A stretch of 47,563 nt of DNA from Melioribacteraceae bacterium (lineage in GTDB: Bacteria > Bacteroidota > Ignavibacteria > Ignavibacteriales > Melioribacteraceae). The stretch covers positions 1 through 47,563 of the forward strand of contig JAIOZI010000038.1 in the NCBI GenBank assembly GCA_021740785.1. The letters are read 5' to 3'. Made by a program: the position numbers and the translations under genes. This document shows positions 31,748-47,265 of this stretch, one piece after another; positions within the stretch are counted from its first letter, which is position 1, and every line of letters starts with the position of its first letter. Under the pieces are notes generated by a model that did no database searches, was not told where the DNA came from, and worked only from the letters and a program-made list of their open reading frames with translations.

Positions 31748-32509
31748 CTAAACAAACTTTTCTCTTTTTTGCAAATAGAACAAACCGAATAAAATTGATA
31801 ATATAGTTCCAGCCAATAAATATAATCGGTTGCTGTAGATTACGCTGCTCCAAATAGCCTCACTCATATCATTAGGAAGATCAAATGGATTTAGAAAAAT
31901 ATTCCATTCGGTATTGTAAAGTATTCCACTCGATATCCAAAAAATTAAACCGATAATAACCATAATAACAGCAGTACCGTTACCGTTGCGGACAACAGTA
32001 GATAGTGCAAAAGCAAGACTGCCCAAGAAGAATATCGGGAACATAAGCTGAAACACCATTTCAAATACAGGAACAACAATCAAAACAACAGAACTGATAA
32101 GGATGAGTGCAAATAAAAGAAGGAAGACAAGTATATAAATCATCAATAAACGAGGCAGCCAAACTTTGTACCTGTAGTTTGGAATAGCAAAAAGATTTTC
32201 AAGCATTCCGGAGTCTTCGTCATTTTGAATACCGAATGTAGTCGGATAAAAGATTAGTAGAATTCCCGGGAAAAGTAGAATATAGTAAGTGTCTTTTATA
32301 TCGCTAGTTGATGAAGAGAAAAAATTTATAATAACAACCAGCAGAAAAAACAACACAGCGGCGGTTAGAAAATATATAAATTTATTTGCAAAAATAATTC
32401 TAAGCGAATACTTAAACTGCTTACTCACTATATCGGTGTAATTTGCAAATATTTTCTTAAAATCCTTCAATTTATTATGCCTGCGAATTATTAAAAATAT
32501 TTGTTTCAT
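31748..32509 (-). CDS. ABC-2 type transporter permease
   Basis: A 253-residue integral membrane protein with about six helices. After a short amphipathic N-terminus (KDFKKIFANYTDIVSKQFKYSLRII) come helices at about 50-70, 92-108, 140-165, 170-190, 195-215 and 230-248. The motif NDEDSGMLENLFAIPNYRYKVWLPR is the cytoplasmic coupling stretch typical of ABC-2 permeases. It is the last gene of the minus-strand operon; its start (ATG at 32509, no good ribosome binding site) lies inside the 3' end of the RND-ABC fusion gene (stop at 32475), so the two are translationally coupled. The ATPase fused to the preceding protein is its obvious partner. Confidence 0.82.
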   Translation of the reverse strand: MKQIFLIIRRHNKLKDFKKIFANYTDIVSKQFKYSLRIIFANKFIYFLTAAVLFFLLVVIINFFSSSTSDIKDTYYILLFPGILLIFYPTTFGIQNDEDSGMLENLFAIPNYRYKVWLPRLLMIYILVFLLLFALILISSVVLIVVPVFEMVFQLMFPIFFLGSLAFALSTVVRNGNGTAVIMVIIGLIFWISSGILYNTEWNIFLNPFDLPNDMSEAIWSSVIYSNRLYLLAGTILSILFGLFYLQKREKFV

Positions 32510-35500
32510 TTTCTTTTTGAATACATAAATAAGCATCTTCCAGAGTCGCTCTTACTGATTTAGCGTTTTCAGCCGGTTTTTCATTTGAGATACATCTTAT
32601 TCTAATTCTGTCACCGTCACGCATGTGGTTGACAATTAATAATTTATTCTGTGCTTCCGGAAATTCTTTTTGCGTTACATGCAGATGCCAAACTTTACCA
32701 TCTGCGATCTGAGTCATTTCAATTGGCTGACCCAAATATTTCACCTTTCCTTCATTCATTACCGCCACACGGTCACACGAGCTGGAGATATCCTCAATAA
32801 TATGAGTTGAGAAAATCACAATTCTTTCACGGCTGAGTTCAACTAAAAGATTTCTAAATCTAATTCTTTCACGGGGATCTAACCCGGCAGTTGGTTCGTC
32901 AACAACAAGAATTCGCGGAAGATGTAAAAGTATTTGCGCAATCCCGATTCTTTGTTTCATACCACCGGAGTACGATCCGATTTTCTCATCTTTTCGATCG
33001 TACATGTGAACTGACTTCAAAACGTACTCGATTCTCTTTTCTCTTTCTTCTCTATCGATAAGATTTTTAAGAATTGCCTGATAATTCAGGAAATCGTAAG
33101 CAGTCATATTTTCATACATACCGAAAGCCTGGGGCAGATACCCGATAAGTCCCTGAAGTTCTTCGCGGTAAATTGAGCGATCTAATCCATTGATTCTCAC
33201 CTTGCCGTAGCTCTCTTGAAGTATTCCGCAGATTATTCTCATGATAGTTGTTTTACCGGCGCCATTTGGTCCTAACAACCCGAACATTCCGTTTTTAATA
33301 TCTATGCTGACTCTATCCAAAGCTTTGAATGGTATACGTTTTTTACCGATTACCGGGATTACTCTCACGAATGAATAATATTTGTAACGCAGTTTCCTAA
33401 ATTTTCCGGATAAATTTTCCTCGTCAAAACTTTCATTAAACAATTTGTGTGACGATGAGTTAATCAGTAATGCCGGGTACCATAATAATGCAATTACAAT
33501 TACTAAAAATAAATTATCCCAAAGAAGCTGAAATAAGACGAGATTAAAAAGCGGGAACAGCCAGTAGATAATCTTATACAAGTTGAAATGGTATTTACCT
33601 AGAGAAATCTTGTTAAGATTAAATTTCGCAAATACGTCATTGAATGTAGTTTTTGAAAAATATAAAAGTAAGAAGAAATTAAAATGAACAAAAACGAACT
33701 TCCAAAAACCGCTTTCCACATAAAAGTAAGTAAAGTAAATCACAAACCCGATTAGCGGAATTTGCCATAACAGCCGATCGAAAAGTGAAGGTTTAATATT
33801 GAATTCACTATATCGTGCCTTCTCTTTTTTACCCTTGTTCCATTCTCTTACAAATCGTGAAGCTTGATCATAAATCTTAACCACATTTTTTATTTCGATT
33901 GTAATGGGGTCATCCGGTTTTATCAATTCGGTTTTAGCCTGCCGCAAGCTGTTCAAAATGAAATATGTTAGTCCCGGAATTAATAGTATTATTAAAAAGA
34001 GATCGGCTAACTGCCAGATAAAACTATCAACTTCAAAATAAATTAAAAGCGATAATGAAATTAATGCGGCAATTTGTGTCGCTTTAATTTTCCAGTTAAG
34101 ATTATAAATCCACTCCAGAGCAGAATTCAAACCGGAATAGAGTGTCGGGATGATGATCAGTGTAAATAAGGTGCTGAATGTCAATCCGCCTATGACAGTA
34201 ATCGCGAACGGAGCCCCGATGGCAGCAACGTATTCGACATCACCGAGTGCGAGAGGTATCATTGCAACAATTGTTGTAATTGCCGTGATTAAAATTGGTC
34301 TTACTCTTGCGAGACCTGCATTAATCAAAGCGCGGGGTGTACTGAATCCTCGTTTCCTTAAAATGTTTGCATAATCAATAAGAATAATACCGTTATTTAC
34401 AACGACTCCGAGCAAGATTAAGAATCCCGTTAATGTATTAGTATTTAGTAATGAATTACCGGTAAAAATTAATGCAATCAGAGAGCCGATTGCAGCAAGT
34501 GGAATTGAAAACAAAAGTACAAACGGAGTTATCAGTGATTCAAAGACGGACGCAAGTATCATAAAAATCAGAAGAACCGCGACAGCTATTAAAAAATAAT
34601 ATTCCTCAAATTCAGATTCATCATCAACAACCTCAACCGCAATCCCGGAAGGAATTATCAAACTGGCGATTAAATCATCAACTTCCTGCTCTGCTAGATC
34701 GAGCAGCGGTTTGCTGTTATTCACTTCGGATAAAAATCTATAATTGATTTCAATTTGTTTCTCCTGATTCACCCGGTTTATTGATGACATTCCGCTTGCA
34801 TAGATAATTTTACTCAATTCCTGCAGATCCTGAACATTACCTTCACTGCCTTCAATCTTTAATGCTCGTAAATCATCCATGGTTTTATCTTCGTCATCTT
34901 CAGCATCCATTGTGATAGTAATATCATATTCCTCTGTACCCTGTTTGAAAGTTGCGTTTGAAGAAAATTCTCTTTGGAATGTTGATAATTCCGAAACAAT
35001 TGATGAAAGAGGAATATTGTACTGGCTGAGTAAATGTGAATCAAATAGTAAATGAATCTCTGGTCTTTCACCGCTGACTGAAACTTGTGCGGACTGAACG
35101 GATGAAAGATTTTCAAGATAATATTGAATATCTTCCGCTGTACTTTGCATTAATTTGTAATCACTTCCTTTAATCACAATACTTTCAGTTTGCGAACCGA
35201 TTCCAAGCATCCTCTGAAAACGGTTACCCATATTGGCTCCGGTGCCGCCCCGAAAACGCTGGCTTGATTGGGGTTCGTCAAAACTTATCTCCGCATCACC
35301 TATATCATTCACTCGCGATTGTATAATCTCTTTTACCTCTTCAATATCTTTACCGCTAATATCTTTAAAATCTTCTTTTAATTTTACGGTTAGTGTGGAT
35401 TGATCTTCATACACTTTGCTTATTAAATCTCCGGCTTCTTCAAGATCGGCAAGCCGTTCTTCAACTTTGCGTGCAACCTCATCAGAAATTTCCAAGGTCG

Positions 35501-37205
35501 AACCTTCCGGCATTTGTACATATAGATTAAACGAATCTGATTCCACTTCTTCTGTTGTGTTAACACTGATTGCCAATGCAATAAATACACTTGCGAAGAA
35601 TACAATAGCTGCGCTGATAATCGTTCGCGCCGGAAATCGCATGCTAGATTTTAGTAATACAAGGTAAATTTGAATTAACCGGTTACTCTTTGCAATTTTT
35701 TGAAATGTACCGGAAAAGTTTTGTTTCATTTGTAAAAAGGTGTGTGTGATCATAGGTATCAAAAACAAAGCAAGTATCAATGAAACCAGTAACGTCGAAA
35801 CAATTGAAACTCCGATATGTAATCCAAAACTGCTTACGAGATAATTAGATGAAAATACAAACGGAAGAAATACTGTAATCGTTGTAAGTGTGGCTGCAAT
35901 AATTGAGCGCCATACTTCGGTTGTTCCTTGAATAACGGATCTGTCCCGGTCAACACCATCACCTGCAAGCCGGTAAATGTTCTCCAGCACAACAATGCTG
36001 TTATCAAGCAGCATCCCGATTGCGAGAGCCATCCCGATTAATGTGAGACTGTTGATTGAAATATCATAAGCGTAAAAGAAGTTGAAAGCGGTAAAAATTG
36101 AAATCGGAATTGCTAACCCAATTGTAATTACCAGCCTGAAATTCCTGAGGAAAATCCACAAAATAATTATTGCAAGAATACCCCCAACTAATGCAAGTTC
36201 CATTATCATATCGATATTGGTTTCCATATCGTCAGCTAGATTGTTTTGTATAACAATCTCAACATCATGATGCTTCAATTCATCATTTAACCTGGTAATT
36301 ACATCTTTACACTCATGCGATAATTCAATTAAGTTTACCTGTGAATCTCTTATCAATCTGATTGTTACGGACTCTTTACCGTTAATACGGCTGTAAGTTG
36401 TCTCTTCTTTAACCCCGAAGAATATATCTGAAATATCTTTCAATCTAATTGGACCGTTCGGACTTACAACAATATCCTCCAAATCAGAAATGCTGCTGCT
36501 TTCCGCAGTTACATTTACAAAATATTTTATATTGTTGTGAAGTATTTGTCCGACAAAAGTACGCTGCTGATTATTTTGATTTATGATTGCGCTGATTCTT
36601 GAAGCGGTTAATCCGTATGCATCCAGTTTATCCTTATGCAGTATTATTTCAATAGATTTTTCTCTGCCGCCGAACACTTCAACACTGGCTATCCCGTCCA
36701 CACTTTCAAAATCTTCGGTAATATAATTGTCAACAATGTTGCGTATTCTGTCAACATCACCGCCGCCTCTAACTTCCAAATCCATAAATTGATTTGATAA
36801 TTGTTCTGTATCGACTTTCAATACATTCACAATAAATTGATCAGCTAAGTTTGATTTTACAGCTTCAACTTTTTCCTGTAATTTTAGGTATGCGTATTTT
36901 ATGTCGGTATTGTCTTTATATGTTATGAAGATCATCCCGGAACGGTAATCTGCATAAGAATCTAAACTTTCAATTCCCTCTAGTGTGCCGATTGCTCCTT
37001 CAAGAGGAATGATTGCCTGCTTCTCAACATAAGCGGGGTCAAATTCTTGAATCCCGTTGATTTGAACAATCATAACAGGCAGCTCGACACTCGGCAGAAG
37101 TTCAACCGGCAGATTTTTGTATGAGATATATCCCAGCAAAGTAAAGCCGATAAATATCATACTTACGAATGTCTTGCGCTGTATTACAAACTTGATGATG
37201 TTCAT
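32475..37205 (-). CDS. RND efflux pump fused to an ABC ATPase
   Basis: A 1576-residue protein in one uninterrupted frame. Residues 1 to about 1035 are a full RND (HAE1-like) permease: NIIKFVIQRKTFVSMIFIG start, periplasmic loops, and helices including LAIGMLLDNSIVVLENI (D401, N402) and LGVVVNNGIILIDYA (N937, N938). Residues 1041-1092 add two further helices. At 1101-1113 PITIEIKNVVKIYD looks like the first strand of an ABC ATPase; then about 155 residues with four more helices intervene; then KALDRVSIDIKNGMFGLLG resumes the ATPase: Walker A GPNGAGKTT (1312-1320), signature YSGGMKQR (from 1412), Walker B ILVVDEPTAGLD (about 1430-1441), H-loop STHIIED. All ATPase motifs are intact. A pump using proton motive force and ATP hydrolysis in one chain is very unusual. 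Lies in the RND-ABC-TolC operon. Confidence 0.88.
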   Translation of the reverse strand: MNIIKFVIQRKTFVSMIFIGFTLLGYISYKNLPVELLPSVELPVMIVQINGIQEFDPAYVEKQAIIPLEGAIGTLEGIESLDSYADYRSGMIFITYKDNTDIKYAYLKLQEKVEAVKSNLADQFIVNVLKVDTEQLSNQFMDLEVRGGGDVDRIRNIVDNYITEDFESVDGIASVEVFGGREKSIEIILHKDKLDAYGLTASRISAIINQNNQQRTFVGQILHNNIKYFVNVTAESSSISDLEDIVVSPNGPIRLKDISDIFFGVKEETTYSRINGKESVTIRLIRDSQVNLIELSHECKDVITRLNDELKHHDVEIVIQNNLADDMETNIDMIMELALVGGILAIIILWIFLRNFRLVITIGLAIPISIFTAFNFFYAYDISINSLTLIGMALAIGMLLDNSIVVLENIYRLAGDGVDRDRSVIQGTTEVWRSIIAATLTTITVFLPFVFSSNYLVSSFGLHIGVSIVSTLLVSLILALFLIPMITHTFLQMKQNFSGTFQKIAKSNRLIQIYLVLLKSSMRFPARTIISAAIVFFASVFIALAISVNTTEEVESDSFNLYVQMPEGSTLEISDEVARKVEERLADLEEAGDLISKVYEDQSTLTVKLKEDFKDISGKDIEEVKEIIQSRVNDIGDAEISFDEPQSSQRFRGGTGANMGNRFQRMLGIGSQTESIVIKGSDYKLMQSTAEDIQYYLENLSSVQSAQVSVSGERPEIHLLFDSHLLSQYNIPLSSIVSELSTFQREFSSNATFKQGTEEYDITITMDAEDDEDKTMDDLRALKIEGSEGNVQDLQELSKIIYASGMSSINRVNQEKQIEINYRFLSEVNNSKPLLDLAEQEVDDLIASLIIPSGIAVEVVDDESEFEEYYFLIAVAVLLIFMILASVFESLITPFVLLFSIPLAAIGSLIALIFTGNSLLNTNTLTGFLILLGVVVNNGIILIDYANILRKRGFSTPRALINAGLARVRPILITAITTIVAMIPLALGDVEYVAAIGAPFAITVIGGLTFSTLFTLIIIPTLYSGLNSALEWIYNLNWKIKATQIAALISLSLLIYFEVDSFIWQLADLFLIILLIPGLTYFILNSLRQAKTELIKPDDPITIEIKNVVKIYDQASRFVREWNKGKKEKARYSEFNIKPSLFDRLLWQIPLIGFVIYFTYFYVESGFWKFVFVHFNFFLLLYFSKTTFNDVFAKFNLNKISLGKYHFNLYKIIYWLFPLFNLVLFQLLWDNLFLVIVIALLWYPALLINSSSHKLFNESFDEENLSGKFRKLRYKYYSFVRVIPVIGKKRIPFKALDRVSIDIKNGMFGLLGPNGAGKTTIMRIICGILQESYGKVRINGLDRSIYREELQGLIGYLPQAFGMYENMTAYDFLNYQAILKNLIDREEREKRIEYVLKSVHMYDRKDEKIGSYSGGMKQRIGIAQILLHLPRILVVDEPTAGLDPRERIRFRNLLVELSRERIVIFSTHIIEDISSSCDRVAVMNEGKVKYLGQPIEMTQIADGKVWHLHVTQKEFPEAQNKLLIVNHMRDGDRIRIRCISNEKPAENAKSVRATLEDAYLCIQKENETNIFNNSQA

Positions 37206-37223: not shown

Positions 37224-40200
37224 TTAAATATTTATTTTAATTTTTTCTTTAAATACATCCAGAACATAGTATACACACGGAATAACAACCAGAGTTAAAA
37301 TTGTAGAGGTAACCAAACCGCCGATTACCGCGAGCGCCATCGGAGATCTGAGTTCGGCACCTTCACCAAAGCCGAAAGTTAGAGGCAGCAATGCTAAAAT
37401 TGTTGTTAAACTCGTCATGAATATTGGGCGAATTCTTCTTTCGCCTGCGCCGAGTATTGCATCCTTCCTTTCCAGTCCATCACGCTTCAATTGATTTATT
37501 GCATCTACAAGAATGATTGAATCGTTTACAGCAATTCCAGCAAGCATAATTATTCCGATAAAAGCCATAATGTTGAATGGTATACCCAGAATTGCGAAAA
37601 TGAATACCGCGCCCACTCCAGCAAGCGGAATTGTTAACAAAATCGTAAATGGATGAATTAATGATTCAAACTGTGAAGCAAGCGCCATATAAACTAAAAT
37701 TATTGAAAGCAGAAGAGCGAACGTTAAACTGCTCATCGATTCCTCTCTCTTCAATTCTTCGCCGGTTATTTGTGCAGAATAATTCGGCGGAAAATCAATT
37801 TGATTTAGTTCATCTTTTAATTTAGAAACTAAATGATCGAGGGGAATATCATCAGCAATTTGAGCCGTAACAGTTCCAATTCTGTTTTGATTTTTTCTGT
37901 TAATTTCTTTTGGTGTTTCGGAAAGTTTTATATCAGCCAATTCAATCAATCGATATTCACCGGTTCCGCTTTGGATTGTAATGTCTTCCAATTCCTTTAA
38001 TGTGATGTCCGGAAGTTTGAGAGTAATGCTGCTTAGCTCACCTTCGTAGTCCCAATCTCCGCCGTCTTTTCCAGTCAGTTTATCCTGCAATTGAGAACTT
38101 ATTTGATCTACGCTTATATTAAACAGACCGGCGCGTAATCTATCTATTTCAACCTCAATTTCGGGCGCACCTTTTTCAAACGATGATTCTATATTAAACA
38201 GTTCACTAACATTTTGCATTTTTGAATAAACCAATTCAGTATACTGCTCAATTATTTCTAAATCATCACCTTTAACCTCAACCACAATCGGTGCGTCTTC
38301 CGTCCCGATAATCTGATTAAGAGGAGTTGATCCATACATGAATCTAATTTCAATTTCGGGCAAATCATCAAATGCTTTTTGAAGACTTGCAATTATTTTA
38401 TTGTTGGAAATTTCGCGTTCGTTCTTCATATGAATTTTAATCGATGCAGTATTTTCATCTTCAAAAAACGAACTTTCATCGCTGCTGAAACTGCTGCTTG
38501 GTCCAATTTGACTGAATATAGTTTCAACCTCTTCACCCAACACATCTTTTATTGATAATTCAAGAGACTGAACCGTCTCGGCAGTTCTCTCAAGCTCTGT
38601 TCCCTCAGCCAATTTTACTTCGAGAGTAATTTCACCGCTATTTGTCTTGGGCATAAATTCACTTCCAACAAATGGAATAAGTAAAATAGAAATTGCAACC
38701 AGTAATGCGGCGCCGGTTATTATGATCCATCTTTTATCAATAAAGGATGATAAATATCCCCGGTATTTTGGAAATGATATTGATGATTGAGTTTTCTTCC
38801 CGTGTGTATTTTTTAGAAACTTAGAACTTAGCATCGGTATAACCAGTATTGCAACAAACAAAGAAGATACAAGAGAAAATGCTACGGTCCATGCTTGATC
38901 TTTAAATAATTCTCCTGAAGTTCCGTGAAGGTAAACGATTGGCAGGAATACAATAATTGTAGTTATAGTTGATGCAGTTATCGCACCGCCGACTTCCGCC
39001 GTTCCGTTTACTGCAGCATCTTTAATTGATGAACCAGATTCAATATGCCGGAAAATATTTTCCATTACAACGATTGCATTATCGACCAGCATTCCGGCGC
39101 CCAATGCTAATCCTCCGAGTGTCATAATGTTGAGCGATAATCCGTTGAAATACATCAGGTTGAAAGTTGCAATAATTGAGATTGGTATTGCGGCGCTTAT
39201 AATTGCAGTAACGCCTATTCTCCTCAAGAATACAAACAATATGATCACTGCTAAAATGATTCCGTAAATTGCGGTTTGTTCTACTTCGCTGATTGAGAAT
39301 TTAATAAACTCGCCTTGATTATGCACGACAGTAAATTCATACCCGGGAAGCGCTTTATTCAAAACTGATATTGCACTTTCAAGATTATCAATTGCTTGAA
39401 CAGTATTGAATTTAGTCTCTTTATAAATCGATAAACCCAAACATCTTTCGCCGTTAATACTTACTATATTTTCAGGTTCTTTATTTGTGAACTCAATTGC
39501 TGCAACATCTTTAAGATACACGGGAGCAAACCCGACCGTATCCATTCCGGCAACACGTTCATATCGTACAATTGTATTTTCAAAGTCATTTATATCTTGA
39601 TAAATCGATACACCTTTTATGATATATCTTTTCCCCATTTCTACAATCGATCCACCCGAAACATTACGGTTAAATTGATCAATCCTCTGCTGCAGCGCTT
39701 CTAATGTTAATCCATGAGCTTCGAGCATATAGCTGCTTGTTTGAATGCTGACCTCTTTTTCTTCAGCGCCGCTTATTTCAACGTCTGCAATTCCTTCCAA
39801 ACGAATTAATTCATTACGGATATAGTTTTCCGCGGTTTTCCTTAGACTGTTCATATCCTTAATTTGGGGATGAGAAAATGCAACTATCATTATAGGTTCG
39901 GCATTCGGATCATACTGTGAAATTGTCAGTTCTTCAATATCCCAGTTCTGTGTTGCACTCGATAATGTTTTCTGCAAGTCGAGAAATGCTTCATCCATAT
40001 CTTTATCCCAATCATACTCAACGGTAATTTGTGCTGAGCCGACCATTGAAACAGATGATACATTAACAACGCCCTGCTGGCGGATTGAAAGAGCTTCGAG
40101 ATTATCTGTAAAGTTCTTTTCGATTTCTTCCGGTGGTTTTTCACCTGCGGTTAATTCTATAAATAACTTCGGATTATTCAAATCGGGAAATAAATCAATA

Positions 40201-40301
40201 CCCAATCGCTCGAATGAAATATATCCCAGTAACAGCACCGCTAAAACCATCATCATTACCGTTACAGGGTAATTAACTGAAAACTGCGTAAACTTTTTCA
40301 T
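37224..40301 (-). CDS. RND efflux permease (HAE1-like)
   Basis: A 1025-residue pump with the usual RND layout: two large periplasmic loops and twelve helices. In helix 4 the AcrB-type acidic pair reads D407-N408 in GMLVDNAIVVMENI; in helix 10 the position of the AcrB lysine reads N926-D927 in GIAVNDSIILVDA. Thus the classical Asp-Asp-Lys relay is changed, with one Asp kept. Other landmarks: the periplasmic pore-domain start FTQFSVNYPVTVMMMVLAVL and the C-terminal ERRIRPIFMTSLTTILALLPL. It lies between the adaptor gene (stop 40361) and the RND-ABC fusion (18 bases away), so it probably forms a hetero-oligomer with the fused RND in the manner of MdtB and MdtC. No good ribosome binding site. Confidence 0.92.
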   Translation of the reverse strand: MKKFTQFSVNYPVTVMMMVLAVLLLGYISFERLGIDLFPDLNNPKLFIELTAGEKPPEEIEKNFTDNLEALSIRQQGVVNVSSVSMVGSAQITVEYDWDKDMDEAFLDLQKTLSSATQNWDIEELTISQYDPNAEPIMIVAFSHPQIKDMNSLRKTAENYIRNELIRLEGIADVEISGAEEKEVSIQTSSYMLEAHGLTLEALQQRIDQFNRNVSGGSIVEMGKRYIIKGVSIYQDINDFENTIVRYERVAGMDTVGFAPVYLKDVAAIEFTNKEPENIVSINGERCLGLSIYKETKFNTVQAIDNLESAISVLNKALPGYEFTVVHNQGEFIKFSISEVEQTAIYGIILAVIILFVFLRRIGVTAIISAAIPISIIATFNLMYFNGLSLNIMTLGGLALGAGMLVDNAIVVMENIFRHIESGSSIKDAAVNGTAEVGGAITASTITTIIVFLPIVYLHGTSGELFKDQAWTVAFSLVSSLFVAILVIPMLSSKFLKNTHGKKTQSSISFPKYRGYLSSFIDKRWIIITGAALLVAISILLIPFVGSEFMPKTNSGEITLEVKLAEGTELERTAETVQSLELSIKDVLGEEVETIFSQIGPSSSFSSDESSFFEDENTASIKIHMKNEREISNNKIIASLQKAFDDLPEIEIRFMYGSTPLNQIIGTEDAPIVVEVKGDDLEIIEQYTELVYSKMQNVSELFNIESSFEKGAPEIEVEIDRLRAGLFNISVDQISSQLQDKLTGKDGGDWDYEGELSSITLKLPDITLKELEDITIQSGTGEYRLIELADIKLSETPKEINRKNQNRIGTVTAQIADDIPLDHLVSKLKDELNQIDFPPNYSAQITGEELKREESMSSLTFALLLSIILVYMALASQFESLIHPFTILLTIPLAGVGAVFIFAILGIPFNIMAFIGIIMLAGIAVNDSIILVDAINQLKRDGLERKDAILGAGERRIRPIFMTSLTTILALLPLTFGFGEGAELRSPMALAVIGGLVTSTILTLVVIPCVYYVLDVFKEKIKINI

Positions 40302-40360: not shown

Positions 40361-41410
40361 TTATTTTATGATCTTTACTTTCTGCCTGTTTCTCAGTGTC
40401 TCAAATCCTTTTGTAACAATTCGTTCATTCTTCTCTAAGCCGTTTACTATTTCAACTTCATCCGGGTTTTCCAAACCGGTGGTAATTACTCTTTCCTGCG
40501 AAGCTCCTTTAACAATTACAAACACTGTTAATCCTCTCTGACGAGAAAGGATAATATCTTTGGGAATTACAATTGCGCTGTCTTTTTTAGCAATAACGAT
40601 TTCCGCTTTTACGAACATTCCGGGACGCAGTTTCCAGTCGGGATTATCAATTAAAAGGGATGCTTTAAATGTGCGTGTACTTTGCTCAATAGCAGGTGAA
40701 ATTTGAGTAATCTTTCCATGAAGCGTGTCGTCTTCAAGTGTATAATTCATTACGCGTGTTTCTTGCCCGTCTTTTACAACTCCAAGCTGCTTCTCCGGAA
40801 GATTTACATCTAAATATAATTTTTCGTAGTTCATGATTTTTACAAGCGCAGTATTCTGATTAACAGTTACGCCTGGAGTATTATATGGCATGTCGACAAT
40901 AACGCCGTCAAATGGGGCATTGACTGCCATTTTATCCAATTGAAGCTGTGCATTTTCATAAGTGTATTTCTGATCCATATAATTGAGTTCGGTTGTTTTC
41001 AGCTCGGTTAATGTTACACCGCCTTTATCATATAAAGATTTCTGCTTTTCAAACTCACTCTCAGCCTGCTCCAACTGTAATTTCTTCAAATCAATTCTGA
41101 TTGTATTTTCATACTCGGGATCTTCAAGTTTTATGATCGCTTGTCCGGCTTTTACCTTATCACCAAGTGAATATTTTTTACCGGTTTGAGGGTTAGTAAG
41201 AAGATTATACTTCCCGGTAATTTCCGCCCTCAGAATTACCTCTTTTGTTGGGAGAAGCGTACCTGTTGCATCGATAAACTCTTCAATTGGTTTTGGTTTC
41301 AATTCCTCAACGGAAACCGGCACAGTGATTTCATCATCAACATCAATTTCATCATTTCCGCACCCGGCAATAAAGATTAGGAAGAATAATAATGCGATTA
41401 TTTTTTTCAC
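40361..41410 (-). CDS. RND periplasmic adaptor (AcrA/HlyD family), lipoprotein
   Basis: A 349-residue membrane fusion protein. Start codon GTG at 41410, with AGGAG seven bases upstream; lipobox LIFIAGC (cysteine 17). Sequential domains: barrel-sandwich/lipoyl half KEVILRAEITGKYN, helical hairpin (LKKLQLEQAESEFEKQKSLYDKGG, about residues 105-150), second lipoyl half VNAPFDGVIVDMPYNTPGVTVNQ, beta-barrel ATRVMNY-type and C-terminal membrane-proximal domain. It bridges the RND pump and the TolC-like channel. Only one adaptor serves the two RND proteins in the operon. Confidence 0.93.
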   Translation of the reverse strand: MKKIIALLFFLIFIAGCGNDEIDVDDEITVPVSVEELKPKPIEEFIDATGTLLPTKEVILRAEITGKYNLLTNPQTGKKYSLGDKVKAGQAIIKLEDPEYENTIRIDLKKLQLEQAESEFEKQKSLYDKGGVTLTELKTTELNYMDQKYTYENAQLQLDKMAVNAPFDGVIVDMPYNTPGVTVNQNTALVKIMNYEKLYLDVNLPEKQLGVVKDGQETRVMNYTLEDDTLHGKITQISPAIEQSTRTFKASLLIDNPDWKLRPGMFVKAEIVIAKKDSAIVIPKDIILSRQRGLTVFVIVKGASQERVITTGLENPDEVEIVNGLEKNERIVTKGFETLRNRQKVKIIK

Positions 41411-41434: not shown

Positions 41435-42910
41435 TTAATTTTTTTCATATTTTATGTCCGGCATAACCGGCTGATCTTTTTCAAAATCGTATAGCGATTG
41501 GATTTTTAAGTTAAGCAGTTCCAGCCTATAATTTATCAGTGCATTGATCCTGTTAAGTTTGGCTTCCGATAGCTGTGATTGAAATTGCTGCAGATCATAA
41601 CTGGTCAAATCACCGTTTGAATATCTTTCCAAATTGATTTCATAAGAAAGCTGTGCGTTGCGCTCGCTTATTTGTGATATCTCGATTTGAGTTTCGAGGT
41701 TTTCCAAATTTCTGTACACGCTCCTCAAAGAAACAATAATGCCTATCTTTTCATCTTCTAATGAAAGATTTGCAACATCAATGTTTTTTTCGGAAGCTTT
41801 AATTCTCGATTCCCGCTCGCCCCAGTCAAAAATCGGGATATCAAATGAAAGTGTGAATTGCTGATTGTTTGTTGGTTTATCATAAATGTTGCCGACTGCT
41901 TCATCAGTCCCGATTAACCCAGCCGATAGTGAGATATTTCCGTAAAATTCATTTGTGGCGGAGGTTTTGATTAAATCGAATTGCGAATTTTCTATATCAA
42001 TCTCTCTCTGCCGCAATTCCATCCTGCTGTTTATTCCCGATGTGATTGCTTTTTCCAAATCGACTTGAAGCGGATTATAGGAGACATCCGCTATTATTGA
42101 TATTTCATTCTCTATCGGCATGCCGATTAATTGTTTAAAATTATCAAGTTGGTTCTGCAGCGTTACCTTTTCATTTTGGTAACTCATCTGACTGTTTAAC
42201 ATATTCAGTTCCGCCTGGTACAATTCATCCTTTGACAGAATATCGGCATCAACTTTCTTTTGTGTCAAATCATAATTTTGTTTCTGACTTTCATATTCAT
42301 CATTCGCAATCTGAACTCTCATTGTCTGCTGGTAAACATTATAAAATGCTTCGGAAACATTCCGCGTAATTGCTAATTTTTGTATTGCATAACCAAGAGC
42401 GGCATTTTCTAAGTCAAGCTCCAACTCATCCAATTGCAAACGGGTGCGGTTATAAGTAAACAAGGGCTGCGAATAACTTAGATAAAGATTGTTGCTGAAA
42501 GTTGAAGATTGTTCATTCTGAAATTCGCTGTAAGAATCCTGCCATGAAAATCGATTGATAAAGGAAACAACTCCGTCCGTCCAAATTATCGGTTGATTAA
42601 TACTGAATGTTCCGTATGATCTTTTCGTTTCGCTGGTATTCCATGTTGAAAAGAAATCGTTGAATTGTCTGTCCTTGGTATATTCAAACGGAGTAACACT
42701 TAAATTGAACTGAGAAAGGAGAGATGCATTCTGTGCATTGAGTGATTCTTTACTCCTTTCAAGATTTAATATCGATCTCCTGATCTGCGGGCTGTTTTCC
42801 AGTGCAATTTCAATTGATTGATCAATTGTCAATGCATCCTGAGAATAAATCGATGTTGATAACAGCAGTACGGATACCGCTGCAATTATTAATAATCTCT
42901 TATAATTCAT
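41435..42910 (-). CDS. TolC-family outer membrane factor
   Basis: A 491-residue outer membrane channel protein. The start at 42910 opens a signal peptide (MNYKRLLIIAAVSVLLLSTSIYSQ) and has AAGGA before it; the longer open frame (from 42979) would overlap the permease gene. The mature protein starts ALTIDQSIEIALENSPQI, the hallmark of OEP domains, and has two long coiled-coil helical halves, with repeats at LNAQNASLLSQ and ISLSAGLIGTDE. It forms the trimeric tunnel for the adaptor and the pumps. No lipid anchor is seen. Confidence 0.92.
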   Translation of the reverse strand: MNYKRLLIIAAVSVLLLSTSIYSQDALTIDQSIEIALENSPQIRRSILNLERSKESLNAQNASLLSQFNLSVTPFEYTKDRQFNDFFSTWNTSETKRSYGTFSINQPIIWTDGVVSFINRFSWQDSYSEFQNEQSSTFSNNLYLSYSQPLFTYNRTRLQLDELELDLENAALGYAIQKLAITRNVSEAFYNVYQQTMRVQIANDEYESQKQNYDLTQKKVDADILSKDELYQAELNMLNSQMSYQNEKVTLQNQLDNFKQLIGMPIENEISIIADVSYNPLQVDLEKAITSGINSRMELRQREIDIENSQFDLIKTSATNEFYGNISLSAGLIGTDEAVGNIYDKPTNNQQFTLSFDIPIFDWGERESRIKASEKNIDVANLSLEDEKIGIIVSLRSVYRNLENLETQIEISQISERNAQLSYEINLERYSNGDLTSYDLQQFQSQLSEAKLNRINALINYRLELLNLKIQSLYDFEKDQPVMPDIKYEKN

Positions 42911-42960
42911 TTTTTTATCCTTCTTTGTACTTCCGGATATTTGTTTTTCAATTTTAATCT

Positions 42961-45900
42961 TTATTTCCTGTTGATCCACTTTATAGCATCAGCCATAATC
43001 AATCCATCGGATGATTTATTTGATAGCGATACCTTTGAAGAACCTTCGGAAAGGTAGAAACTGCCGAGTAAATTCCATCCTTCATCTGCATTACTGAAGT
43101 CAAGTATTACTTCTTCATCCCCGTCGTCATGTGTAACGGTATAGTGATATTCCTGTTTGCTGTTGTCACTATTTCTTCCGCGTCTTCCCGGAATTCTTGG
43201 TTTAGATATATATGTATATACTTCATAGTAACCGCTTTGAGGAATTTCTACATTCCATGCCGCACTTGTGCTGCCGTCGCCGGATTCGGTATAATGAACC
43301 GAGTGAACATATTTTCCGTATGATTCTGAAATAATTGTAGCACGCCAATCCTCAGGGGGATTCCATGTCTGCAAGCCGACATATTTTTCACCTTCCTGCT
43401 CAAGTGAAAACAGCTTTTTAAGCAGACTTGTTTCTTCGGGATTCTTGACTTCGAATCCCGGGTCTTCATTATCAACGATTATTTCATCCCGACTCACAAA
43501 TGCTTCCGGCTCATCGAGAATGGTTTCACCGTCGAATGGTTCGGCTTTGCTATTTTCCTCAAATTCTTCAAACGGAAAGTCAAACTCCAGCGGAAGGTTT
43601 TTTGAAAGGATAGTATTGACCGACATTCTACCGGGCGATTCATCAAGCACCGAAGATATTTGTTTCGTTTGACCGGGCATCAATTGGATTACCTTTTCTG
43701 CAATTGAGGTTTCCTCATCGCCCCCGCCGGACATAAATCCGAAACCTCTTCCGCCTCCCGGTCCGCCTCTTCTCGGTTCGAATGTTATTTTTACAAATCC
43801 TTCAACCGGTTCAGAATTTGTTATATTGAAATTTATTTGATATCGTTCACGGTTATCGGAGACAACTTTGTAACCTTTTATCTTAGTGATAAAATATCCC
43901 GGAAGTTGAGAATTGTTGAACCAATCTTCTATCATTTCCTCAAGATTAATTCCATACTCTTCATTCAATGAATTTACAAACTGCGAATAGCCGCTTGTTG
44001 AAAATTTGTTTTCATTAAGTGTTCTATTTATTAAATCCCGCAGGTTTGATTTACCTATTTCACTTTCGAGCTGCGTAAATAAATAACTCCCTTTCAAATT
44101 CAGAATTTCTTTAAGATACTTATTGTAAGTGGTATCCGAAATTATTTCGGCAAATGATTTATCATTTAATATCTGCGCTGCTTTCTCGGTCGGATTTAAT
44201 CCCATTATTGCACGCATAAAAGGTGAGCCTGAGTTATCGTTTTTTACATCGAGATAATTTTCAATTATTTTGTTGAAAACAGGCAGTGATGAAGATGATA
44301 AATTATTAGTATAGTAATAAAAATTAGGAAATATCTTGTAAGGATTACCGGGCGTTGTGTTGTTATCATTATCGCTTCTAAATCTGAACATGTTGGATTG
44401 ATTCATAAACGTATTGCGTACAAATCTGTTAAACATGTTTGATTGATTCTCTTTCGGAAGTACAACCTGGTTACTTCTATTCCCAAACCTTTCCTGCATT
44501 CTTTCTCTCTGCTTGAAATCCGCATCGTCAATCTCAACGCCGTTTTCCGGCAGCATTACAATTTGCGGCTGCGACTGTTCGTGAGCTGTTGTCCACATTC
44601 TCTGGTACCCGGTAAATTGTGCCGGTACTTCAACAATTGAAAATTGCTGGTATGGATATGTACGTGAAATGTCGCGCTCATAATCCTGTTTCAATTCACG
44701 AATGAGTGCTGTAAGCGTGTCGTTAATTTCATCGAGATAATTTTTATAGTAATCATGTTTTTCCAAATTTAAAAGGTTGTATTTGATCGAATCAACTTCA
44801 ATAGAGTTGACTACATACGGACCAATGTTCAGTGATAACTTCGGCAGAGGAACTTCCGGCTTAAATTCAAAAATACCTGGAGATGGTGATTTATATTCCC
44901 CCTGAGAAACTGCGAGTAGATTCTCTTTCGTCTCGACTTTCAAACTGAAATTTGTGAACTCAACATTGTTGCTGAATTGAGCTTCCGGTGAAAATGTAGT
45001 CCCGGATTTAGGGTACCACATATTTTCTTCGGTTAACAAAAGGTAACCGGGTGTTACAAATGCGTATTTTTTATCGATTGTATAGTAAGCCATCTTTCTC
45101 ATTTGATTTCTTTTATCTTCATTGATATCGAGATAAGCGGCTTCTTCACTTATGCCTCCAGAGTATGCAATAGAAAGTCCTTTTGTTTCTTCAGGCTTCA
45201 GCGCCGATGAAAGGTTTACGGTGATCAAATGTATGTTTCTTGAGAACTCAACTTTGCCGCCGCCGGAAGTAATAGATTTAATTTCTAATGACGGATTCAA
45301 ATTCAAGATAAATTTCGAAACCGACTTTTCGTTATTGTTTTTTACGATAATATCTGATGTGCATTCAATTGTTGACCCTTTATGCCTGAGCGAAATATCA
45401 TTCTGAACCACAGTAATTTTCAGATCCGAAACATGTTCGTTATTTAGATTAATCATTTCTGTACGAAGATTTTCGCCGCTTTGAAAATTGCCGATGTAAT
45501 AAATCATAGAACCAGCACCGCCGAATAGAAATATTAAAGTAAGAATTAAATTAAATTTGCGCATAGTTTCGGATTGCGGCAGACGTTTGAACATGTACAT
45601 TGTAAAAAAGATGAAAGAAAGACCGAATAATATATAAGCTCCTCTCTGCAATATTAAATTTCCAATATTCCCGAATCCTACAAAATCGGAATACATCATG
45701 GGAACGGAAAAGCCGATGTAATCGAATGCCGAATAGAATTTTGGTCCTAAATATAAAAGAGTAACTCCGATATAACCGAGCAGAACAATAAATGTAACAG
45801 CCTGGTTGCGGATTAAAGTCATTAGCAGAAATGCAAATCCCGTAATAAAAATCAAAGTTGGCAGGCTTAACAATAAGAAGTAATAGAAGTAAATAAATAT

Positions 45901-46332
45901 ATTGAATTGTGCGTCGAGATTTATAACATTAAAAACAGCAGCCATCAGCATTACAATAAAATCCAGGACAAAAAAGATCACCAGGATTCCGAATGTTTTT
46001 CCCAACACGTAATCGCTGTTTGAAATTGATCTAATATAAATCGCTTCGGTTGTGTCAAGTTTTTTGTCCCGTTTAAGAAAATCAGAAGCAAGAAAAATGG
46101 TTATCACGGCTTGTGCAAGATTAAGCATCAGTAAATTAGAGTAGGGAATGGAAGAGGTCATACCGTAAAGGAATCGCCAGATAAAACCGCCGGTTACATC
46201 TGTGAATGCTATTAAGTTGAATAGGAATAGCAGCGCTAATGATAGAATTGCAAATATTCGAAAAAACCAGCTTCTCCAAAGAGTTTTAATTTCGAATTTG
46301 GAAACGGTCCAAATGTTGTAAAATGACAACAT
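42961..46332 (-). CDS. ABC-2 permease fused to a degenerate M1-like peptidase and golvesin-like domain
   Basis: A 1123-residue protein. Residues 1 to about 280 are an ABC-2 permease with six helices (LSLALLFLFNLIAFT, VLGKTFGILVIFFVLDFIVM, FITGFAFLLMTLIRNQAVTF and others). From about 285 to 860 follows a large extracytoplasmic M1-like (gluzincin) body. The expected HExxH zinc motif is not found; the nearest match, HEQSQ at about residue 584, lies in the substrate-loop region, and the site itself is replaced by Asn/Ser/Phe-rich sequence, so catalysis is probably lost. A Gly/Arg-rich patch near 855-875 leads to an acidic linker and, at 996-1123, a golvesin-like carbohydrate-binding-type domain ending LSNKSSDGLIMADAIKWI. 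GAGG lies upstream of the ATG; the ATPase gene ends 21 bases before. Confidence 0.82.
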   Translation of the reverse strand: MLSFYNIWTVSKFEIKTLWRSWFFRIFAILSLALLFLFNLIAFTDVTGGFIWRFLYGMTSSIPYSNLLMLNLAQAVITIFLASDFLKRDKKLDTTEAIYIRSISNSDYVLGKTFGILVIFFVLDFIVMLMAAVFNVINLDAQFNIFIYFYYFLLLSLPTLIFITGFAFLLMTLIRNQAVTFIVLLGYIGVTLLYLGPKFYSAFDYIGFSVPMMYSDFVGFGNIGNLILQRGAYILFGLSFIFFTMYMFKRLPQSETMRKFNLILTLIFLFGGAGSMIYYIGNFQSGENLRTEMINLNNEHVSDLKITVVQNDISLRHKGSTIECTSDIIVKNNNEKSVSKFILNLNPSLEIKSITSGGGKVEFSRNIHLITVNLSSALKPEETKGLSIAYSGGISEEAAYLDINEDKRNQMRKMAYYTIDKKYAFVTPGYLLLTEENMWYPKSGTTFSPEAQFSNNVEFTNFSLKVETKENLLAVSQGEYKSPSPGIFEFKPEVPLPKLSLNIGPYVVNSIEVDSIKYNLLNLEKHDYYKNYLDEINDTLTALIRELKQDYERDISRTYPYQQFSIVEVPAQFTGYQRMWTTAHEQSQPQIVMLPENGVEIDDADFKQRERMQERFGNRSNQVVLPKENQSNMFNRFVRNTFMNQSNMFRFRSDNDNNTTPGNPYKIFPNFYYYTNNLSSSSLPVFNKIIENYLDVKNDNSGSPFMRAIMGLNPTEKAAQILNDKSFAEIISDTTYNKYLKEILNLKGSYLFTQLESEIGKSNLRDLINRTLNENKFSTSGYSQFVNSLNEEYGINLEEMIEDWFNNSQLPGYFITKIKGYKVVSDNRERYQINFNITNSEPVEGFVKITFEPRRGGPGGGRGFGFMSGGGDEETSIAEKVIQLMPGQTKQISSVLDESPGRMSVNTILSKNLPLEFDFPFEEFEENSKAEPFDGETILDEPEAFVSRDEIIVDNEDPGFEVKNPEETSLLKKLFSLEQEGEKYVGLQTWNPPEDWRATIISESYGKYVHSVHYTESGDGSTSAAWNVEIPQSGYYEVYTYISKPRIPGRRGRNSDNSKQEYHYTVTHDDGDEEVILDFSNADEGWNLLGSFYLSEGSSKVSLSNKSSDGLIMADAIKWINRK

Positions 46333-46353: not shown

Positions 46354-47265
46354 TTAAATAATTTCTTCTTCTGCAATTTCAACATGCTGAGCCAATACAA
46401 ATTCCATGAAATAGATATAAGCGTGTTCCAGGTTCGGCTCGATTATATCAGCGGGGTAATCATCTATTTTATCCGCAACTACTTCAACATCCCAGCCATT
46501 TTCGGAAGGAATTGTTGAAATGACGGGATATTTTTCCTTAATCTTGTCGAGATCAGTCTCAAATGCCTTAATTCTAAAAACATGACCCTTTGCCGTGTTG
46601 ATCAATTCATCGGGCTGACCCTGAAATTTTAATTCTCCCTTGTTGAGTAAAGCCATCTTACGGCAGGTGCTTGAGATATCACCAACAATGTGTGTAGATA
46701 AAATGATAATAATTTCTTCCCGACTCATATCAGACAGCAAATTTCTAAATCGAATTCTTTCTTCCGGATCTAAACCTGTTGTGGGTTCATCAACTATTAC
46801 GATTTTGGGGTTTCCGATCAAAGCCTGTGCTATTCCCAGTCTTCTTTTCATACCGCCGGAAAGTTTTTTCGCGAAACGGTCGCGGAATTTATAAAGCCCG
46901 ACTTTGTGGAGCATTTCTTCAACTGCTCTTTTCCTTTCGGCAGTGTTCCGGAGTCCGCCTAAAGCAGCGGAATAATCTAAAAACTCCCATGTACGGAGTT
47001 TGGCGAAATAACCGAAATCCTGGGGAAGGAAGCCGAGCATAGCTCTTATCTCTGCGCGGTTCTTTTGAAGGTCTAATCCGTTTACTTTTACATTGCCGGA
47101 TGACGGGCGCATCAATGTTGCCAATATTCTCATTAAAGTAGTTTTACCAGCTCCATTTGGTCCTAATAAACCAAGCATTCCGCTTTCAATTTCTAAATTG
47201 ATGTTGTTAATAGCCCGGTTCCCGTTTTTGTAAATCTTGGTGAGTTCTTCGATGCTGATGTTCAT
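46354..47265 (-). CDS. ABC transporter ATP-binding protein
   Basis: A 303-residue stand-alone ABC ATPase, first gene of the operon. Walker A GPNGAGKTT (residues 35-43), Q-loop LPQDFG, signature LSGGMK (135-140), Walker B IVIVDE (D159, E160) and H-loop STHIVGD are all present. The C-terminal ~80 residues (VFRIKAFETDLDKIKEKYP onward) form the regulatory extension common to ABC-2 exporters. It is closest in style to the ATPase fused at the 3' end of this operon (shared DPxERIRFRNLL), so the two may form a heterodimer or serve the two ABC-2 permeases respectively. Weak ribosome binding site. Confidence 0.93.
   Translation of the reverse strand: MNISIEELTKIYKNGNRAINNINLEIESGMLGLLGPNGAGKTTLMRILATLMRPSSGNVKVNGLDLQKNRAEIRAMLGFLPQDFGYFAKLRTWEFLDYSAALGGLRNTAERKRAVEEMLHKVGLYKFRDRFAKKLSGGMKRRLGIAQALIGNPKIVIVDEPTTGLDPEERIRFRNLLSDMSREEIIIILSTHIVGDISSTCRKMALLNKGELKFQGQPDELINTAKGHVFRIKAFETDLDKIKEKYPVISTIPSENGWDVEVVADKIDDYPADIIEPNLEHAYIYFMEFVLAQHVEIAEEEII

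Follow-up and report, generated by a model that had tools for sequence, protein, structure and literature searches.

In the genome of a Melioribacteraceae bacterium (GCA_021740785.1), contig JAIOZI010000038.1 (positions 1 to 47,563; this whole stretch of 47,563 nt is called the window below) contains one open reading frame (ORF) that joins a complete resistance-nodulation-division (RND) permease to a complete ATP-binding cassette (ABC) ATPase. The same fusion was found in genomes of several phyla, judged by record titles, and lies on the minus strand as the sixth gene of the operon ABC1 - PERM1 - TolC - MFP - RND1 - RND2::ABC fusion - PERM2. We suggest, with about even confidence, that the seven genes encode an envelope-spanning hybrid exporter, in which an ATP-driven ABC step would hand its substrate to an RND trimer and then to the adaptor and TolC. 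Exporters of the RND and ABC types are regarded as distinct classes, each with its own source of energy. The conserved operon, which carries an ABC motor on an RND chain, with both families duplicated and present across phyla, offers a concrete system for asking whether the two work in series or as a single engine.

Architecture of the fusion

Translation of the window reveals no internal stop in the fusion ORF, which is on the minus strand, a point on which the first-pass annotation of this DNA was silent. That annotation proposed a single unbroken chain with a complete RND permease and a complete ABC ATPase, and this is confirmed by the 1576-aa frame, the intact catalytic motifs and the Pfam matches. 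ACR_tran is full-length in residues 3-1024 (profile 1-1018 of 1021, E-value 6.4e-163), as is ABC_tran in residues 1296-1440 (profile 1-137 of 137, E-value 1.3e-26). NCBIfam returned RND permease and ABC ATPase models, and among the matches listed all are below the curated cut-offs. The full query (residues 1-1576) was matched once in its own genome, the remaining matches being to RND alone or to ABC alone. The result also corrects the annotation of such genes, for which profile libraries show only 'efflux RND permease' and 'ABC transporter'.

After the RND part, the hydropathy profile and alignment show two hydrophobic segments, a strand with the pattern K-x-Y...R-E-W, an insert of about four transmembrane (TM) segments, and the nucleotide-binding domain (NBD) from a P-F-x-A-L strand onwards (profile of 76 sequences, with 10 of 86 rows lost to the anchor pattern). 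An AlphaFold2 (AF2) model of residues 1027-1576, built from 31 sequences (pLDDT 83.4, pTM 0.68), places helices at 12-32 and 36-61, a strand at 77-86, helices at 115-231 and then the NBD (model numbering). In this predicted model, the structure 1vpl aligned over 235 of its 238 residues, from model residue 75 to 538, with a root mean square deviation (rmsd) of 1.6 and Z of 28.4; the output gives only the first and last residues of an alignment. Since this alignment and the other NBD rows listed begin at model residues 70-76, it is strongly suggested that the strand before the insert is the first strand of the NBD. The fused NBD is thus predicted to be a complete ABC fold only when that strand is counted in, being made of one strand before a four-helix membrane insert and the body of the domain after it. 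The ATPase start near residue 1270 given by the first-pass annotation was not borne out, the beta1 strand lying at about residues 1103-1112, ahead of the insert. RND permeases have 12 TM helices, and both pieces of the NBD may be cytoplasmic, because 12+2 helices precede the first piece and 4 helices separate the two.

The motif and insert counts come from 79 sequences, 7 of the 86 rows having been dropped since the anchor pattern did not match. The Walker A Lys, the signature Ser-Gly-Gly and the Q-loop Gln are invariant (79/79), while the Walker B Asp/Glu and the D-loop Asp are kept in 77 sequences (1 gap, 1 unread) and the H-loop His in 77 (1 gap, 1 Pro). In the fusion of the window, the Walker A Lys is Lys1318 and the catalytic Glu is Glu1437. 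The insert varies from 155 to 180 residues, with a median of 172, and the invariant residues of the linker include W1122 and P1284. The 85 fusion loci correspond to 83 distinct sequences, because in their last 600 residues L074 is identical to L013, and L021 to L014. No convincing named domain was found for the linker and insert in Pfam (E-values up to 0.1, in single members only) and no convincing solved relative in the PDB (E-values of 0.07 or worse). The nearest named families of the fused NBD in NCBIfam, both below cut-offs, are drrA and GldA, which we take to be ATPases of ABC-2-kind exporters. There is no in-frame ATG between residues 1041 and 1300, but 10 GTG/TTG codons in that interval might serve as an internal start of the ATPase.

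Distribution of the fusion among genomes

Species genomes were scanned with a query that spanned the junction, so fused genes were favoured among the matches, and the best 80 of at least 465 relatives were kept. All 80 have the RND, linker and NBD profiles in one frame. Sixty of these frames have at least 1550 aa, 15 are truncated by a contig boundary (14 at the start, 1 at the end), and the remaining 5 (L041, L043, L072, L097 and L098) are broken inside the RND or NBD part, away from the junction. The record titles among these best 80 name Bacteroidota, Chlorobiota, KSB1, Krumholzibacteriota, Calditrichota, Zixiibacteriota, Latescibacterota and a Deferribacteres bin. One further contig, L026, is titled Actinomycetota and carries the end of the operon; its genome groups with the phylum of G410 (KSB1), and the title is probably that of a misfiled bin. 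Carriers of the fusion include the cultured Draconibacterium orientale FH5T (L084). Compared with 4 relatives, codon positions diverge in the order third > first > second alike in the RND part, the linker, the insert and the NBD.

Searches by phylum gave a complementary picture. With residues 1020-1300 as the query, 4 of 97 relatives matched (own genome counted), each with an uninterrupted frame of between 1561 and 1577 aa. A sample spread over the own phylum gave matches in 4 of 345 genomes (again counting the own genome), and a linker profile of 31 sequences matched 5 of 395 genomes of this phylum; most sampled genomes of the own phylum are therefore without the fusion. In the phylum of G410 (KSB1 record L024), the linker profile matched 41 of 82 genomes, 34 of them with a frame of at least 1431 aa. 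A stop codon between the RND and ATPase parts of relatives, which the first-pass annotation gave as part of a refuting result, was looked for and not found in the 80 kept loci, all of them fused across the junction, and these 34 of 41 genomes were fused too. The recurrence in independent genomes, which the first-pass annotation proposed as a check, is thus upheld by the scan and by the phylum-wise searches.

Shorter frames were found in the 7 remaining genomes of the G410 phylum, with causes assigned for four of them: G499 is broken at contig ends, G498 and G523 correspond to the contig-cut loci L034 and L040, and G518 contains a repeat insertion, the only split with an assigned cause in this search that is not at a contig end. 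The other three are G513, G480 and G538. In G518 (L133:5505-5716) the frame stops after TM14; 212 nt further on, just before the first NBD strand, another frame opens and runs for 485 aa. Parts of this 212-nt stretch recur in the same genome in both orientations (29 matches, including itself), and we read the locus as a gene probably split by a dispersed repeat at a domain boundary, with both halves remaining open frames. The fusion is single-copy in 8 of the 8 carrier genomes examined, and a search for plasmid carriage gave no match.

The operon and its products

The features of the window are listed in Table 1. The operon encodes a pair each of RND permeases, ABC ATPases and ABC-2-like permeases, together with a single adaptor and a single TolC. 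Neighbours were counted in those of the best 80 loci that have enough flanking DNA (600 nt of room for PERM2). RND1 adjoins the fusion in 65/65 loci, MFP is present in 58/58, TolC (OEP) in 57/57 and PERM1 in 52/54. PERM2 is beside the fusion in 75/77 loci, and the two exceptions (L031 and L038) have less than 700 nt downstream. The window shows the full seven-gene order, as do 15 other long stretches (5 + 10) that were hand-picked for length. ABC1 and PERM1 make up a second ATPase/permease pair, which the first-pass annotation had not tied in.

Table 1. Coordinates of the fusion, its parts and the other genes of the operon in the window
Feature	Position	Strand	Basis
RND2::ABC fusion ORF, 1576 aa, ATG start	32475..37205	minus	Open-frame list and Pfam
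RND permease part, residues 1-1024	34134..37205	minus	Pfam ACR_tran, residues 3-1024
Two extra TM helices after the RND part (TM13-14, residues ~1038-1087)	33945..34094	minus	Hydropathy and predicted AF2 helices 12-32, 36-61
First NBD beta strand (residues ~1103-1112), predicted	33870..33899	minus	AF2 strand 77-86; NBD alignments begin at model residue 70-76
Four-helix TM insert within the NBD (residues ~1141-1257), predicted	33435..33785	minus	AF2 helices 115-231 and hydropathy
Remainder of the NBD (residues ~1293-1564)	32514..33329	minus	Pfam, motif alignment, AF2
Walker A	33246-33272	minus	NBD motif alignment
Signature	32952-32969	minus	NBD motif alignment
Walker B	32895-32912	minus	NBD motif alignment
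H-loop His	32802-32804	minus	NBD motif alignment
ABC1, stand-alone ABC ATPase, 303 aa, sister of the fused NBD	46354..47265	minus	NCBIfam and tree
PERM1, 1123 aa: ABC-2-like membrane part, M1-peptidase-like region without HExxH, Golvesin_C	42961..46332	minus	Pfam and relatives
TolC-like outer-membrane factor (OEP)	41435..42979	minus	Pfam and NCBIfam
Periplasmic adaptor, RND-type membrane fusion protein (MFP)	40361..41410	minus	Pfam; TIGR01730 above cut-off
RND1, second RND permease, 1025 aa, without ATPase	37224..40301	minus	Pfam and tree
PERM2, predicted NosY/ABCG-like (type V, ABC-2) permease	31748..32536; start more likely 32509	minus	AF2 fold

PERM2 itself has no Pfam match at 0.001, and ABC2_membrane_3 was weakly matched in 6 of its 36 relatives, the best at 1.8e-5. 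Its AF2 model (pLDDT 88.8) aligns with NosY (Z 16.0, 216 aligned residues, rmsd 3.6) and with ABCG proteins (Z of about 15), and the fold is predicted to be NosY/ABCG-like, of the type V (ABC-2) kind. The first-pass annotation described this neighbour as an ABC-2 permease overlapping the fusion: the class is upheld by the predicted fold, while the overlap amounts to 62 nt if the first ATG is used, although comparison of PERM2 with its relatives favours the ATG at 32509 as the start. A MacB-type permease was not among the structural matches listed for PERM2, where a missing row excludes nothing.

In PERM1, the N-terminal parts match ABC2_membrane_2 in 5 of 17 proteins (best 4.4e-7). Besides the protein of the window, which has both, 4 of 7 others show the M1-like match and 7 of 7 carry Golvesin_C. 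PERM1 was also considered as an active M1 peptidase, and this was rejected with HExxH in 0 of 18 proteins.

The duplicated families were placed in trees, with supports given as FastTree local values. Fused NBDs (n=18) and ABC1 proteins (n=17) are sister clades (0.979 and 0.91), jointly separated with 0.999 from 14 other ABC ATPases of the own genome. RND1 (n=20) and the RND parts of the fusions (n=20) are likewise sister clades (1.0 and 1.0), jointly supported with 0.949 against 8 others; own_L003, which is RND1 itself, was left out of this tree.

Proposed mechanism and alternatives

We suggest that the fused NBD pairs with its sister ABC1, or with itself, and would drive PERM1 and/or PERM2. 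These would bring the substrate, by moving it across or out of the inner membrane, to the periplasmic face. The substrate may be amphiphilic or lipid-like, a guess made because type V relatives transport lipids, glycans and lipid-like drugs. PERM2 is beside the fusion in almost all loci with room and is a more obvious client of the fused NBD than the RND part is. The RND trimer would then take over the substrate and, powered by the proton gradient, expel it via the adaptor and TolC. RND1 and the fusion probably assemble into this trimer together, on the pattern of MdtB2C, a known trimer of two RND proteins (PMC12802153 and PMC7015380). The fusion, together with the helices embedded in the NBD, would keep the ATP step beside the RND step at a fixed stoichiometry, so that ATP and the proton gradient power two successive steps and not one. 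A pair of ABC1 and fused NBD would imply one fusion chain per complex (1:2 trimer), and a homodimer of fused NBDs would imply two (2:1). Heteromeric assembly is the simplest reading of inner-membrane parts that are duplicated and duct parts that are single.

Several observations weigh against this hybrid exporter working in two steps. The Foldseek E-values for PERM2 are weak (best 7.5e-3), homology between the membrane parts of PERM1 and PERM2 is unsupported (hhalign probability 1.2%, E-value 0.045), and both the ABC and the RND trees are small, with few outgroups. The remaining points concern D407, D408, K940, R971 and T978 (AcrB numbering throughout), which we take to be the proton-relay positions of AcrB. 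Among the 85 fusions, D407 is retained in 79/80, R971 in 85/85 and T978 in 84/85. D408 is replaced by N in 78/80 (5 further gaps) and K940 by N in 84/85, so that the fusion was not found to have an AcrB-type relay. RND1 is mostly the same, with N in 61 and D in 6 at D408, and N in 62 and S in 6 at K940 (n=70). Both N replacements are also present in L002 and L006, stand-alone RND permeases of the own genome, while L005 keeps D-D. Judged by these residues, the change separates the fusion from AcrB and not from the RND superfamily, and nothing firm follows from it, since it is compatible with proton coupling being either lost or kept. Relay loss was considered as a sign of ATP dependence and rejected because stand-alone RND permeases of the same genome share it.

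A different possibility, doubtful in our view, is a single machine powered by ATP and the proton gradient together. Here the fused NBD, paired with ABC1, would hydrolyse ATP and pass the motion on mechanically, via TM13-14 and the helices embedded in the NBD, to the conformational cycle of an RND1/fusion heterotrimer. A directly dual-energised RND pump, in which the NBD would stroke the RND trimer itself via the helices TM13-18, as in the mechanotransmission proposed for MacB or the boosting of ArsB by ArsA, with PERM2 as an accessory or as a membrane anchor for the NBD, seems unlikely. The NBD is indeed covalently tied to the RND part through membrane helices, the canonical D408/K940 relay is replaced, and there is a precedent in ArsA-ArsB for an ATPase boosting a proton-coupled carrier (PMC13381914). 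Yet the family of the NBD and the adjoining NosY/ABCG-like permease indicate an ordinary ABC client, the same replacements occur in RND1 and in stand-alone RND permeases without an ATPase, and a dimeric NBD does not match the symmetry of a trimeric RND pump unless this is a heterotrimer. Of the two ideas raised in the first-pass annotation, a tethered ATPase serving as a scaffold fits the evidence better than a pump energised from both sides. If true, direct dual coupling would make this the first RND pump that is part ABC transporter, a new kind of exporter. Two structural puzzles also stand out: an NBD interrupted by a membrane insert, and the way in which an ATPase that acts as a dimer is matched to a pump that acts as a trimer.

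The RND pump and the ABC-2 exporter could also be two independent transporters for the same or related cargo, fused for co-expression and co-location without any energetic or physical hand-off. Every part looks complete, and in G518 the repeat splits the gene at the linker while both halves stay open. We nevertheless consider this improbable, as fusion in all of the kept loci, the conserved linker helices, the invariance of W1122 and P1284 and the fixed gene order all speak against it. Still more improbable is a purely regulatory role, in which ATP binding would open or assemble the RND-MFP-TolC complex like a clamp, with no substrate movement by the ATPase, for which FtsEX-like systems are a parallel. 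The operon is envelope-spanning, and the M1-like domain of PERM1 may be structural because HExxH is lacking in all 18 proteins, both of which would suit such a role. Two full ATPase/permease pairs exceed what it needs, however, and the catalytic Glu is kept in 77 of the 79 aligned NBDs (1 gap, 1 unread). Finally, an assembly chimera, or a stop codon lost in the own genome only, was rejected for the family and has a negligible probability, given the same fused frame in other genomes of several phyla and the coding-like divergence across the junction.

Comparison with known systems

The operon resembles HAE-type tripartite pumps such as MdtABC and MuxABC in bringing together a complete ACR_tran permease, an adaptor and TolC, and in its two adjacent RND paralogues, which are sister clades (the 0.949 above, with 8 outgroup sequences). 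In addition, E. coli MdtB is the best sequence match of a solved structure for the RND part of the fusion. Unlike in those pumps, this part extends into an ABC ATPase with six additional predicted TM helices, the residues at positions D408 and K940 differ, and the operon adds two ABC ATPases and two ABC-2-like permeases. The NBD has the motifs and the predicted fold of type V (ABC-2) exporters (NosFY, ABCG, ABCA, Wzm/Wzt and TarGH), and the predicted fold of PERM2 is of the same kind. In contrast to them, the NBD is joined to an RND permease, it carries a TM insert after its first strand, and its operon includes RND, adaptor and TolC genes.

MacAB-TolC is an ATP-driven ABC transporter that works with an adaptor and TolC, but its NBD shares a chain with its own permease, whereas here the NBD is C-terminal on an RND chain. 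ArsA-ArsB, in which an ATPase can power the proton-coupled carrier as well (PMC13381914), differs in consisting of separate polypeptides of unrelated families without a tripartite system; direct coupling in the present case would be hypothetical. No RND-ABC fusion was described by title, abstract or passage in the open-licence literature searched, which is weak evidence of absence, and the available parts of PMC8277102, PMC3924187 and PMC7997004 do not mention one. Each module thus belongs to a known superfamily, and their covalent union and the logic of an operon of eight parts were not found described, with the same weak bearing on absence.

Divergent members of the family and the fusion of G419

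A more divergent group (e.g. G527, G539 and G490) is likewise fused, with frames of 1580-1610 aa. The seven-gene order extends over two overlapping stretches in G527, and the same order is present in G419, where ABC1 is cut by the stretch end. The branch represented by L137 (7944-12683), L138 (9251-14080) and L139 (1910-6739) was excluded from the conservation counts; it matches the linker profile with E-values of 1e-11 to 1e-21 and has a more variable insert, being still fused. The fusion of G419 (L136, 1665-6584) has 1640 aa, and its match to the linker profile falls into two pieces separated by about 30 codons.

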